A stretch of 36,659 bases of DNA from Deltaproteobacteria bacterium. Its GTDB lineage: Bacteria > Desulfobacterota > Desulfovibrionia > Desulfovibrionales > Desulfovibrionaceae. This document shows positions 13,802 through 36,659 of this stretch, piece by piece. The notes under the pieces are model-generated. The model was not told where the DNA came from. It saw only the letters and a list, made by a program, of their open reading frames with translations, and made no database searches. Numbering within the stretch: position 1 is the stretch's first letter; every line of letters begins with the position of its first letter. The position numbers and the translations under genes were made by a program. The stretch covers positions 1-36,659 of the forward strand of contig JAISBT010000015.1 of NCBI GenBank assembly GCA_031266055.1, read 5' to 3'.

Positions 13802-14653
13802 ATGGAATTAAAACCGCTTTCGGCAACCAACGATTTCGTTTTTCGCAAAATATTTGGCGAAAATCTGTATGTATTGAAGGATTTTCTTGAGGCTGTGCTG
13901 GACTTGCCCGCCGAAGAGTATAAAAACCTGACGGTGGTTGATCCGAATCTGGAGAGGGAATATATTGAAGATAAGCTCGGGATTCTGGACGTCAAAGTCA
14001 CCACCGGTTCCGGCAAGGTGGTTGATATTGAGGTGCAGGTGCGGCAGCAGCGCGCTATCTGGAAGAGGATGCTGTTTTACACGTCCAAGATGCTTGTGGA
14101 GCAGGTGAAAAGTGGCTATCCGTATGACAGGATGAACAGAGCCATCAGCATCCTGATCGCCGATTTCGTGATGATACAGGAAAATAACGCCTACCGTCAC
14201 TGTTTCCGGCTTTATGACAGACATACACAGGTGCGGTATCCTGACTTCATGGAGATCAACGTGCTGGAATTACCCAAGATGCGTACGCCTGACGGAACGC
14301 GGTTGGGCAACTGGATGAGTTTTTTCAAGGCAACGACCGAGGAGGAATATATGGATGCAGCGCAAACCAACCCGGCGATCAACGAAGCTTGGGGCGTCAT
14401 TAAAGTCCTGAGCGGCGATGAACGGAACAGAGCCTTGGCCGAGGCCAGGGAAAAATCGCGTATGGATTTTGAGTCCTTTCTCGGCGATGCCCGGTATGAA
14501 GGGTGGCAGGAAGGATTGCAGGAAGGACGGCAGGAAGAAAAATTGGAAGTCGCCCGGAACCTTCTGCAGAAAAAGATGCCGCACGATGATATTAGTGACG
14601 CAACAGGTCTGCCCCTTGATGAAATAAAGCGGCTTGCCGCTGACCTCGCATAG
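13802..14653 (+). CDS. Rpn family recombination-promoting nuclease / PD-(D/E)XK family putative transposase
   Basis: LSATNDFVFRKIFGEN N-terminus, GILDVKVTTGSGKVVDIEVQV (D..ExQ nuclease core), C-terminal GWQEGLQEGRQEEK repeats and MPHDDISDATGLPLDEIKRL tail. Confidence 0.92.
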   Translation: MELKPLSATNDFVFRKIFGENLYVLKDFLEAVLDLPAEEYKNLTVVDPNLEREYIEDKLGILDVKVTTGSGKVVDIEVQVRQQRAIWKRMLFYTSKMLVEQVKSGYPYDRMNRAISILIADFVMIQENNAYRHCFRLYDRHTQVRYPDFMEINVLELPKMRTPDGTRLGNWMSFFKATTEEEYMDAAQTNPAINEAWGVIKVLSGDERNRALAEAREKSRMDFESFLGDARYEGWQEGLQEGRQEEKLEVARNLLQKKMPHDDISDATGLPLDEIKRLAADLA

Positions 14654-14690
14654 CTGCTCCGCCGTACGTTTCCGGGCTTCCCGTCGGGTA

Positions 14691-14860
14691 ATTCCGTTTC
14701 CAGATCAAAAATGATGTCATTTTTGATCTGGAAACGGAATAACGCGGCAGGATGTCGCGCCGAAATGCTTTCGCATTTCGGAGGCAAGGCGAAATCACAT
14801 TTTCGCCGCAGCCGACAAATCAAAACTGCATGGATGCAGTTTTGATTTGGAAATCGAATA
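14691..14860 (+). repeat. Alpha multi-hairpin element, copy 1
   Basis: H1 ATTCCGTTTCCAGATCAAAAATGA-tg-TCATTTTTGATCTGGAAACGGAAT (24-bp perfect stem, 14691-14740); small GCGGCAggaTGTCGC; H2 CCGAAATGCtttcGCATTTCGG (14760-14781); H3 GGCGAAAtcacatTTTCGCC (14788-14807); H4 AAATCAAAACTGCAT-gg-ATGCAGTTTTGATTT (14817-14848). Confidence 0.93.
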
Positions 14861-15012
14861 AAGCCCGTAAGCTACCGGAAACGAGGAGCAATTTTGCCGC
14901 TGCCGGATCTTTTGCCCCGAATCATGGCCTGAAAAAGCTGAAACAGGTGTTATGAAGGGGTACATTTTGCCCCTCTGGGCAAATATCCGCGAAACCGTGG
15001 TGGATTGGAGTT

Positions 15013-22358: not shown

Positions 22359-22452
22359 ACGTTTTTCTATATACCAAAAAAAAACTGTTGCAAGCTTACT
22401 GTGTTTTGACACTCACCCCGGGTCAAACCAGGCGATTCATTCGCTTTCCAAG

Positions 22453-22540
22453 GCAAAACTGCATCCATGCAGTTTTGCTTTGTCGGCTGCGTCGAAAGTG
22501 TAATTTCGCCTTGCCCCCGAAATGCTGAAGCATTTCGGCC
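22453..22540 (-). repeat. Alpha multi-hairpin element, copy 2 (lacks H1)
   Basis: GCAAAACTGCAT-cc-ATGCAGTTTTGC (H4), TTTGTCGGCTGCG linker, CGAAAgtgtaaTTTCG (H3), CTTGCCC linker, CCGAAATGCtgaaGCATTTCGG (H2), abutting the stop codon of the minus-strand cysteine desulfurase. Confidence 0.9.
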
Positions 22541-27892: not shown

Positions 27893-28085
27893 TGGAGACG
27901 CTCCCCTGGTACGCTGTCCCGCTTAAAAATGCAGATCAACCCGCGTACTGGCCGCCGGGCGGACAAGCCCGGCGCGCCGCCTTAAGGCGGCGGAGCAAAG
28001 CAAAAACCACGTTTTTGCTTTGCGATTTTCACACTTCAAACGTAGCGAAGCGAAGTTTTAAGTGTGACATGGTACTGGAGCATTT
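27893..28085 (+). repeat. Gamma multi-hairpin repeat, copy 1
   Basis: GTACGCTGTnnnnCTTAAAA block, then ACAAGCCCGGCGCGCCGCCTTAAGGCGGCGGAGCAA (27963-27998), GCAAAGCAAAAACcacGTTTTTGCTTTGC hairpin, and CACACTTcAAAC..GTTTtAAGTGTG hairpin. Confidence 0.88.
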
Positions 28086-28765
28086 CACGCAAAAGACCGC
28101 GCGGGCAAATTGAGGCCAAGCACCTGGAAGCGGCCATGTTCCGCCCGGATATGGTGGATGTGCGCGTAATAATGTTCAAGGCGGAAAATAGCCTGAAGAG
28201 GCATTTGCAGGATCTGCGCCATAAGCACGCGGCTCACCCCCGCATGGGTGACTATGAGCACGGCGTTATTCTCCGCGCCGCCAAGCCGGATCGCTTTCTC
28301 CAGAGAGGCCGCCGCCCTCTCCTGCAACCGGCGGAAAGATTCTCCGCCTTCCGGAGCGTACTCCGCGGGCGATGCCCCTCTTTGCTCGTAAGCGCCTGGA
28401 AAACGCCGCCTGACCTCTTCCACGCTGAGCCCCTCCCAAGCGCCCAGGTTTATTTCCCTGAGCCCCGCGTCCAGTCGGGGCGGCTGCCCGGACGTCCGCG
28501 CCGCAATAATTTCCGCGCTTATCCTGCACCGCTGCAAGTCAGAACTGAGGATCAAGCCGAACGGTCTGGCCCGGAAAATTTCCGCCACTTCAGCTATCTG
28601 GGTCAGACCCTTGTCCGTCAGGGCGGGATCGCCCTGCCCGAGAAAACGGAACGGGCGGCTTGCGGCAATCTCGCCATGCCGCAGCAAATAAATATCCGTT
28701 TTTATAATCGCTTCGCTCCATGTCTTGCTTCGGTGGGAATGAATCCCGCCTCGCGCCGGCGGCAT
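28085..28765 (-). CDS. Histidine phosphatase / phosphoglycerate mutase-like (CobC-like) protein
   Basis: TDIYLLRHGEIAA (LRHGE), NLGAWEGLSVEEV, VLIVTHAGVSRVLM. Native start unclear: N-terminal ~20 codons are in repeat sequence. Confidence 0.85.
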   Translation of the reverse strand: MPPARGGIHSHRSKTWSEAIIKTDIYLLRHGEIAASRPFRFLGQGDPALTDKGLTQIAEVAEIFRARPFGLILSSDLQRCRISAEIIAARTSGQPPRLDAGLREINLGAWEGLSVEEVRRRFPGAYEQRGASPAEYAPEGGESFRRLQERAAASLEKAIRLGGAENNAVLIVTHAGVSRVLMAQILQMPLQAIFRLEHYYAHIHHIRAEHGRFQVLGLNLPARSFA

Positions 28766-28915
28766 AAGCCGCCGCGCCGTATTTTAAACCATATATCGCT
28801 GCGCCGGACGTGAAGTCCGGCTTGCTCCGCCGCCTTAAGGCGGCGCGCCGGGCTTGTTAGCCCCGCGGCAGTATGCTGTTCTATACGAACTTTTAAGTGT
28901 TACAGCGTACTAGCC
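28735..28915 (-). repeat. Gamma multi-hairpin repeat, copy 2 (inverted relative to copy 1)
   Basis: 28822-28857 is the exact reverse complement of 27963-27998; on the minus strand preceded by GTACGCTGTaacaCTTAAAA..TACTgccgcgGGG and followed by GCCGGACttcacGTCCGGC and a GCGGCGGCttatGCCGCC hairpin. Confidence 0.88.
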
Positions 28916-30059: not shown

Positions 30060-30082
30060 GCAAGTTCTCTTATTCGGATTCC

Positions 30083-30237
30083 AGATAAAAATTGCGTCCT
30101 GCAATTTTTATCTGTCGGCTGCGGCGGAAGCGTAGTTCCGCCTTGCCTCCGAAATGCTTCGCATTTCGGCGCGACATCCTGTCGCCTATTCCAATTCCAA
30201 ATTAAAAATTGACGCATTTTTAATTTGGAATTGGAAT
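30083..30237 (-). repeat. Alpha multi-hairpin element, copy 3
   Basis: AGATAAAAATTGC-gtcct-GCAATTTTTATCT (H4), GGCGGAAgcgtagTTCCGCC (H3), CCGAAATGCttcGCATTTCGG (H2), GCGACAtccTGTCGC, ATTCCAATTCCAAATTAAAAAT-tgacgc-ATTTTTAATTTGGAATTGGAAT (H1, 22-bp perfect). Confidence 0.93.
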
Positions 30238-31293
30238 TACTGTATAGGCTCCGGGCTTGTTTCTCAAAATTTCAGCCCTGCGGGCAATAAGCTCGCTCAC
30301 TATGGATACCGCGATTTCCGCCGGGGTTTCCGCCCCTATTTTAATCCCTATGGGGCAGAAAGGCCGCATTAAATCCTCCTGCGTAAAACCCATTTTCATC
30401 AGCTTGGCATATAGCTGCTTTTTTTTGGCCCGGCTGCCGATCATGCCTATATAACCGGCTTTTGTCTTCAAAGACTGGTAAAGTACGCTGGCGTCAAAAA
30501 CATGGCCCCGGGTGAGTATGGCAATGAAACAGCGTTCATCCACCGGAAAACCCAATTTTTTTTCATCCAGAGAGTCAATAAAAGCCGGAACCGTCAGCAG
30601 GCAATCCGCCGCAACCTGGGGAAAGCGCTCCTGAGCCACAAATTCCGGGCGATCATCAAGAACCGTGACTTTAAAACCCACCGGCACAGCCACCCGGCAA
30701 ACGGCCTGGGATACATGCCCTCCTCCGGCAAGAATCAAACGCAGAGGGGCAAGCAGGGACTCCACCAGGTAGTTTTCTCCTTCCACCTGCATGAGTATAG
30801 CCGATTCCGGAGCTTTTTGCATGATAACGGAAGATCTTTCCGGAGCAAGCGCGGCACCGGCAACGCTTCCATCGGGAAAAACAGCCGAAACGGGTGCGGA
30901 CTCGCCGGTTGAAGTTACCAGAAGAGTGTTCTGTCCATGCTCGTACCGTGCCAGCAGCATTTGAAAAAAGTCCAGCAATTCCGGTTTGAGAGTCTGGATA
31001 AATATATCCATGCGTCCGCCGCAGATAAGGTCAGCCCCCTCGGCCAGACAGCCGCTCATGTCCGCATGCAGCAGGCTGGACTTGCCGGAGGCGAGAACCT
31101 CCCCCGCCTCCTTGATGGCCCTGGCTTCGGCCAGACCGCCTCCAATTGTTCCACACAGCAACCCGCCCGCGTCTATCAGCATTTTGGAACCGGCGCTCCT
31201 GGGCGTGGAGCCTTTTTCCGCGGCAATGGTAACCATGGCCAGAGTCCGGCCTTTTTTCAAGTATTCACAAATTCCGGCCAGGATTGTGCGCAC
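30220..31293 (-). CDS. XdhC/CoxI family molybdenum-hydroxylase maturation protein
   Basis: VTIAAEKGSTPRSAGSKMLIDAGGLLCGTIGGGLAEARAI; LILAGGGHVSQAVCRVAVPVGFKVTVLDDRPEFV; TRGHVFDASVLYQSL..GYIGMIGSRAKKKQLYAKL. Confidence 0.92.
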   Translation of the reverse strand: MRTILAGICEYLKKGRTLAMVTIAAEKGSTPRSAGSKMLIDAGGLLCGTIGGGLAEARAIKEAGEVLASGKSSLLHADMSGCLAEGADLICGGRMDIFIQTLKPELLDFFQMLLARYEHGQNTLLVTSTGESAPVSAVFPDGSVAGAALAPERSSVIMQKAPESAILMQVEGENYLVESLLAPLRLILAGGGHVSQAVCRVAVPVGFKVTVLDDRPEFVAQERFPQVAADCLLTVPAFIDSLDEKKLGFPVDERCFIAILTRGHVFDASVLYQSLKTKAGYIGMIGSRAKKKQLYAKLMKMGFTQEDLMRPFCPIGIKIGAETPAEIAVSIVSELIARRAEILRNKPGAYTVIPIPN

Positions 31294-34074: not shown

Positions 34075-34085
34075 AATTTCCTTTT

Positions 34086-34198
34086 AGAGCATTTTAACAT
34101 TGAAAATGTTGAAATGCTCCAGCGGCGGGCACCGCCGCCCGCCCCGCAGGCGTAGGCGAAACTTGTTTCGCCGTTAAGCGCCGGAGGGAGCGTCTCAA
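34086..34198 (-). repeat. Beta multi-hairpin repeat, copy 2
   Basis: Reverse complement is nearly identical to 4-118. Confidence 0.93.
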
Positions 34199-34231
34199 AA
34201 TTAAATTGCTCTATTGTCGCTTGACGCGATA

Positions 34232-36540: not shown

Positions 36541-36659
36541 AGAGCGTTTTAACATTGAAAATGTATAAAGCGCTCTGCAAGGATTTGCCTGCAAATCCTT
36601 GCCGCGAGATTGTCGCGAGGCGAACTTGCTTCAGCCGTTGCGACGAAGGAAGCTACGGA
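36541..36659 (-). repeat. Beta-like multi-hairpin repeat, copy 3 (diverged, cut by window edge)
   Basis: AGAGCGTTTTAACATTgaaAATGTaTAAAGCGCTCT, GCAAGGATTTGC-ct-GCAAATCCTTGC (12 bp perfect), CGCGAgattgTCGCG, then GAGGCGAACTTGCTTCAGCCG..GGAAGC aligning with TAGGCGAAACTTGTTTCGCCG..GGGAGC of copy 2. Confidence 0.75.

Follow-up and report, generated by a model that had tools for sequence, protein, structure and literature searches.

The BOX element of Streptococcus pneumoniae is a small dispersed composite of hairpin modules with an optional central module. It has terminal inverted repeats and a target duplication, its mobilisation in trans by an insertion sequence (IS) has been proposed, and ISSpn2-like ends have been noted (PMC3049150). 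The repeat family described here was alike in its hairpin modules, terminal inverted repeats, target duplication and proposed mobilisation in trans, and of the described systems BOX came nearest to its build from hairpin modules, of which a central one is optional. No sequence relation between the two is known. Here, the modular build was seen as short and long forms and as a tandem core in one copy (L013). In contrast to BOX, which belongs to another phylum, the element has a TNA duplication, five hairpins and a fully palindromic right end.

Bacterial MITEs (review PMC10969869; Nezha, Correia elements, QMITEs) are shorter than 500 bp and non-coding, with terminal inverted repeats, a target duplication and a stable fold, and the element agreed with them in these properties. 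However, bacterial MITEs often form one long hairpin from both ends, whereas here each end folded on itself. The two ends of one copy were about 80% alike and the core was G+C-rich, which also differed from typical MITEs. The IS1031 group of the IS5 family has a TNA target. The element shared the 3-bp TNA target duplication with this group, but its ends (TACC/TTCC/TTCG) were unlike those of the IS5-type element at L106, and no such transposase was found in the host genome.

REP/BIME repeats with RAYT (PMC2817692, PMC3733652) are likewise extragenic, palindromic, mosaic and high in copy number. However, the unit of the element was far longer, a target duplication was present, and the genome gave no Y1 transposase. 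Paired stem changes and conserved loops are also features of hairpins maintained by intrastrand template switching, which is reported to fix stems and keep loops (PMC8794818). That study concerns rRNA and other RNA genes, whereas the hairpins here lie in transposon copies. The element family is apparently undescribed, but it is of a known kind (MITE).

Copies in the window and spread of the family

Three copies were present in the window, which is the whole stretch of 36,659 nucleotides that was analysed. A preliminary description had reported three repeats of four hairpins each. The three places were real, and hairpin order and sequence were common to all of them. The copies lay where they had been reported, but their true ends were at 14692-14858, 30073-30236 and 22440-22539. 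The count of four hairpins was wrong, and a full copy had five (HL, H2, H3, H4 and HR). One supposed linker, CGCGACATCCTG, belonged to H4 (CGCGACA-TCC-TGTCGCG) as its 5' arm plus loop, and the 15-base core CTTGCCYCCGAAATG included the 5' arm of H3. The stem letters that had been quoted were accurate. The module order was left tip, HL, linker CGGCTGC, H2, linker TTGCCT, H3, H4 and the terminal palindrome HR.

The copy at 14692-14858 was a complete element of subfamily C, 167 bp long, and read HL-H2-H3-H4-HR along the minus strand, opposite to both other copies of the window. It was flanked by TAA/TAA direct repeats, and the flank reading gave a 3-bp target duplication at 14689-14691 on the HR side and at 14859-14861 on the HL side. 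The hairpins were placed on the minus strand from sequence and fold. HR was a terminal perfect palindrome at 14691-14740 (called H1 in the preliminary description), and its outer arm was the right terminal inverted repeat. H4 at 14743-14759 read CGCGACATCCTGCCGCG with one A-C mismatch and had been counted as linker. H3 at 14760-14781 read CCGAAATGCGAAAGCATTTCGG, and H2 (GGCGAAA/TTTCGCC) was located at 14788-14807. The left hairpin HL, formerly labelled H4, was located at 14816-14849, and before it stood the left tip (9 nt) of the terminal inverted repeat. The RNA fold of this copy gave -85.7 kcal/mol with z = -11.6.

The copy at 30073-30236 was a complete element of subfamily B on the plus strand, 164 bp with five hairpins, which scored 98.4 bits with the core model. 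Its TTA target duplication of 3 bp was read from the flanks at 30070-30072 on the left and 30237-30239 on the right. On the plus strand, the sequence gave HL at 30082-30114 (CAGATAAAAATTG-CGTCCTG-CAATTTTTATCTG), H2 at 30123-30142 (GGCGGAA/TTCCGCC), H3 at 30149-30169 (CCGAAATGC-TTC-GCATTTCGG) and H4 at 30170-30186 (CGCGACA-TCC-TGTCGCC, with the outermost pair lost). The terminal palindrome HR at 30188-30237 had 22-nt arms that were 100% complementary. The third copy, at 22440-22539 on the plus strand (core model 46.5 bits), was a partial copy of subfamily C. It held the left tip, HL, H2 (CGAAA/TTTCG only) and H3 and was without H4, HR and the right end, and its left flank was TCA at 22437-22439.

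The genes beside the window copies were PDDEXK_2 and glycosyltransferase genes, a cysteine-desulfurase-like gene, and MobA-like and XdhC genes. The PDDEXK_2 gene (Rpn-type nuclease/'transposase') at 13802-14653 adjoined the first copy, and part of it recurred at other loci examined. Neither its adjacency nor its repetition established a link to the element.

The host genome was a 91%-complete draft of 2.75 Mb in 202 contigs. Core CTTGCCYCCGAAATG occurred exactly 43 times in these 2.75 Mb, compared to 0 for the reversed control, and 49 times when up to one mismatch was allowed. The exact 15-base core gave 0 occurrences in six same-genus species. The host genome yielded approximately 65 copies or fragments, and a search with B-type ends showed about 20 further places. 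The copies fell into subfamilies A (most copies), B and C, whose terminal hairpins differed from one another. The family was non-coding with a size range of 164-220 bp. Complete short copies were 164-167 bp, and the long form (e.g. L010, L011, L018) carried a sixth hairpin between H3 and H4. At L013 (2488-2730), the HL-H2-H3 part was tandemly duplicated within one element, which resembles the variable number of boxB units in BOX.

An exact 19-base core pattern was searched against 85,488 species, and whole elements were found only in four Desulfovibrio MAGs (Iy174_bin20, Pc512_bin87, Nc350_bin8 and Ncb351_bin103). Other matches to the pattern looked like chance because no hairpins surrounded the core. 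The sample codes Pc512 and Ncb351 correspond to the termites Prorhinotermes canalifrons and Neotermes cubanus (PMC11707648). A covariance-model search of relatives, proposed in the preliminary description, was carried out with core model R1. Of 149 genomes from the bacterial family, 16 had the core, as did 9 of 44 genera; the E-values of this model were rough. Genus g20 showed 9 to at least 33 copies in each of six genomes and fewer copies were seen elsewhere, all R1 counts being lower bounds. One congener of the host species gave a single weak core match with this model. The family is expanded in the host species, and it is scattered through gut Desulfovibrio-like genomes, several species having dozens of copies.

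The element was absent from the collections of viral contigs, phages and plasmids that were searched, and a literature search on Desulfovibrio MITEs gave no description of this family. Together with the Rfam result, this was consistent with the earlier statement that the repeat belonged to no named family. As far as the collections searched show, it is apparently an undescribed repeat family across several genera of Desulfovibrio-like bacteria. It is useful for annotation and strain typing.

Ends, insertion sites and mobilisation

Complete copies had TACC, TTCC or TTCG at the left end and GGTA or GGAA at the right end. In the host genome, identical 3-bp flanks were found in 23 of 29 complete copies and were always TNA (shuffled mean 11.7, maximum 20). 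The middle base of the TNA flank agreed in 26 of the 29 (permutation P < 5e-5). The same was observed in other genomes, where 19 copies had a TNA on each side and the two agreed in 16 of them (P < 5e-5), and TTA, TAA, TCA and TGA were all represented among them. The left and right ends formed imperfect terminal inverted repeats that shared 15 of 18 bases in subfamily A and 18 of 22 in B and C. The tip bases co-varied across the element, TACC with GGTA and TTCC with GGAA, the second base of the left tip changing with its partner at the far right (Fisher P = 0.026). A transposase-binding site common to both ends would have this effect. Internally deleted derivatives of 50-126 bp (L079, L085, L086) retained both ends. 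The copies were mostly intergenic, in either orientation and without fixed gene context. The 3-bp TNA direct repeats and the terminal inverted repeats indicated a non-autonomous transposon (MITE) that was inserted as double-stranded DNA.

These results suggested that the palindromic mobile element is very probably a MITE, non-autonomous and non-coding, which is moved in trans and in which arm complementarity is preserved at the level of DNA. The preliminary description had been right in naming a palindromic mobile element. As the flanks showed, it inserts as double-stranded DNA at TNA sites, mostly between genes, and duplicates 3 bp. A DDE-type transposase recognising TACC/TTCC-type ends would mobilise it in trans. 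Stop-codon targeting, with TNA as TAA or TGA on either strand, was rejected, as 6 of 31 copies lay at stops compared to 7.9 expected. When the flanks were joined and used in an empty-site search, the matches were only short and belonged to other repeats, and no exact empty site was recovered.

No mobilising transposase with matching ends was found among the families searched in the 91%-complete draft. Y1_Tnp gave no match in the host genome in a search that worked on controls, and DUF4096 and DDE_Tnp_1_2 gave no match there either. The ISAzo13-type model also had no match in the host genome, but it had none in any control. Two DDE_Tnp_1 matches were discarded: one was an ISAs1-like element whose ends (CAGGGCAGACGCATCTAAA) were unrelated, and the other was a fragment at a contig edge. 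Thus, the ISAs1-like and IS1634-like candidates for an autonomous partner were rejected, with ends that were unrelated or missing. IS5-type DUF4096 transposases occurred in three carrier genomes and in none of the contigs of the host genome. The only one of them with readable ends (L106, in a carrier genome) had ends GGAGCTGTTTCTAAATA, which differed from those of the element. A multi-copy IS may just be missing from the draft assembly.

Paired changes in the stems and their origin

The preliminary description had stated that the stems change on both arms. The paired changes were far beyond chance, also against a tree-aware null, and the covariation was statistically supported in both the shuffle and the tree-aware tests. 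In subfamily A, HL had 11 two-sided Watson-Crick cells compared to a shuffled mean of 2.3 and a maximum of 8 (5000 shuffles of the 3' letters). HR had 23 compared to a mean of 9.7 and a maximum of 17 (5000 shuffles), and after removal of two common polymorphisms it kept 6 two-sided cells versus 0.4. In the 29-row alignment of the core, 23 cells were two-sided versus 5.1 after shuffling, and 0 of 500 shuffles reached the observed value.

For the tree-aware null, the number of changes per column was kept and the changes were placed randomly on branches. Over 300 simulations for each part, branch co-changes to Watson-Crick pairs numbered 16 in the core (null mean 4.0, maximum 11), 5 in HL (0.37, maximum 3) and 6 in HR (0.47, maximum 3). 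Slid partners of the core did not exceed this null. In a pair-by-pair G-test with a tree-based null, a single pair passed alone (H2 12-23), and the three top-ranked pairs were all structural. The conclusions rest on plain MAFFT alignments because alignment A2, which was made against the model, leans towards structure.

In distant genomes, whole stems were replaced and the loops and linkers persisted. For example, H3 was ATGGGC-TTC-GCCCAT in G033, and HL was GCTTTCAAAACGGC/GCCGTTTTGAAAGC in Pc512. The H3 loop was TTC in 67 of 89 rows and the H4 loop was TCC in 65 of 89. This conservation of loops and linkers over several genera was a hint of some sequence-specific constraint beyond pure mutation bias. 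Five private two-sided Watson-Crick changes were observed (L017, L032 twice, L038 and L100) compared to 32 private one-sided changes. By our own arithmetic, with approximately 1% private change per base, chance alone would give fewer than 0.1 such two-sided changes. No donor for them was found among the copies read. In addition, the same C-A mismatch was seen at one HR pair in five copies.

The pairing of the arms was best explained by template-switch repair or by selection on DNA hairpins, and the two were not separated. Template switching in replication (quasipalindrome correction) would copy one arm onto the other. It turns a one-sided change into a two-sided one in a single step and, in the intrastrand form, keeps the loops intact (PMC8794818), and thus it accounts for most of the observations. 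No inverted loops were seen, which counted against it, as did the C-A intermediate at one HR pair in five copies, since mismatched elements thus last or are able to move. The C-A shared by these HR copies meant that strict pairing is unnecessary for spread, or that recombination mixes copies. As an alternative step, only source elements with intact hairpins would keep transposing. The conserved loops somewhat favoured selection for DNA hairpins in source copies. Tentatively, the resident arms may be continually re-matched by template switching in replication, in which case compensatory changes, which commonly count as proof that an RNA is functional, would arise in DNA without function. Alternatively, the conserved loops may be read as extruded DNA hairpins by a transposase. 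Several species have dozens of copies in a genome, and the family is therefore a natural data set on template switching versus selection as the cause of compensatory change, and on how palindromes in DNA remain perfect.

A serious rival to template switching, itself a sub-reading of the MITE explanation, is that the arms match through selection alone: transposition would need the ends to extrude as a hairpin or cruciform, and source copies would spread only if perfectly paired. It is possible, though we would not call it probable. HL and HR were near-perfect in all subfamilies and species even though their sequences were wholly different, and mismatched copies could be dead decay. However, selection only did not fit the private two-sided changes, which were found in single young copies, nor the C-A mismatch that several HR copies had in common. 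H2-H4 also co-changed, although they are distant from the ends.

Recombination that exchanges whole hairpin modules between element families seemed an improbable source of the paired changes. The flanking modules of the long-form insert (CGCTGCTGTC..CATCCGTAA and AACGGCTG) were also present in another repeat family of the genome, and the tandem duplication of HL-H2-H3 in L013 was in line with such exchange. It left the private single-pair changes unexplained, however, and donors were absent among the copies read.

RNA and single-strand readings, and neighbouring repeats

The preliminary description had also offered a structured RNA. On this reading, the element is a structured RNA or an RNA-level regulator (sRNA, attenuator or mRNA-stability element), and selection on the transcript keeps the stems. 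We consider it very unlikely. Two-sided changes in all stems, conserved loops and linkers, and very strong folding would agree with it, but Rfam 15 gave no match to the element above the gathering threshold. At gathering and relaxed thresholds, only chance miRNA-type matches to the long hairpin were obtained. The copies lay in either orientation without fixed gene context, and neither a terminator-like T tract nor a consistent promoter accompanied them. A terminator role was likewise rejected, the T tract being inconsistent.

Pairing at the RNA level predicts that one-sided changes should be G-U more often than A-C. In the terminal stems, the distinct one-sided types were 17 G-U versus 26 A-C. 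In the core, the one-sided cells were 61 G-U versus 51 A-C, or 41 versus 47 without the loop-closing pair. One-sided stem changes thus had no G-U preference in either orientation. The lack of a G-U over A-C excess meant that the resident copies are not maintained as RNAs, and they decay like neutral DNA. Since one-sided changes are mostly post-insertion decay of dead copies, this comparison says little on the source element. The test does not reach the active source element, on which RNA selection may act. Covariation alone is no proof of RNA function, as the paired changes here are in transposon copies.

GNA-type loops form very stable DNA mini-hairpins, and single-strand Y1 transposition (IS200/IS605, REP) makes no 3-bp duplication. 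An ssDNA-mobilised palindrome (REP/BIME with RAYT, or IS200/IS605-derived) with hairpins as the recognition sites of a Y1 tyrosine transposase, the other form suggested earlier, is extremely improbable, because the 3-bp TNA duplication contradicts it, the 91%-complete host genome had no Y1_Tnp and the unit, at 165 bp and bounded by terminal inverted repeats, was unlike a REP of 20-40 bp, although the palindromes were extragenic, several per unit and mosaic, and the opposite-strand loops of H3 and H4 read GAA and GGA, which as GNA mini-hairpins are a lead only.

Other multi-hairpin repeats were also observed. One of them (TTTGAGACGCTCCCTCCGGCG...GAGCATTTCAACATT..AATGTTAAAATGCTC) was found at 1-124, 34083-34215 and 36541-36659 of the window and had more than 20 matches in the parts of the genome examined. 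Its copies at 1-119 and 34084-34202 were inverted and 97% complementary, and it had the module CGCTGCTGTC..CATCCGTAA..AACGGCTG in common with the long form of the element. A histidine-phosphatase gene at 28085-28765 lay between two inverted copies of yet another multi-hairpin repeat (TACCATGTCACACTT...ACAGCGTACTAG), at 27906-28087 and 28700-28914, possibly as a composite unit. At L117 (approximately 1200-1530, Iy174_bin20), a different multi-hairpin element showed the same end plan (TCA/TACCAAGTTGCATTC...GGGA/TCA, with slashes at the element boundaries). Right ends similar to those of the L117 element were seen at several places in G060 and G061. It would appear from this that such MITEs form a superfamily in these bacteria. 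In addition, the repeat CTGATATCCGCATTGAAAAGTAAACTTTTCCCTGCGGAGGATCGTCAACCGAAAAACGTGGTTTTCGGTTGACTC.. often directly adjoined or interrupted elements (L096, L028, L045, L024 and L081).
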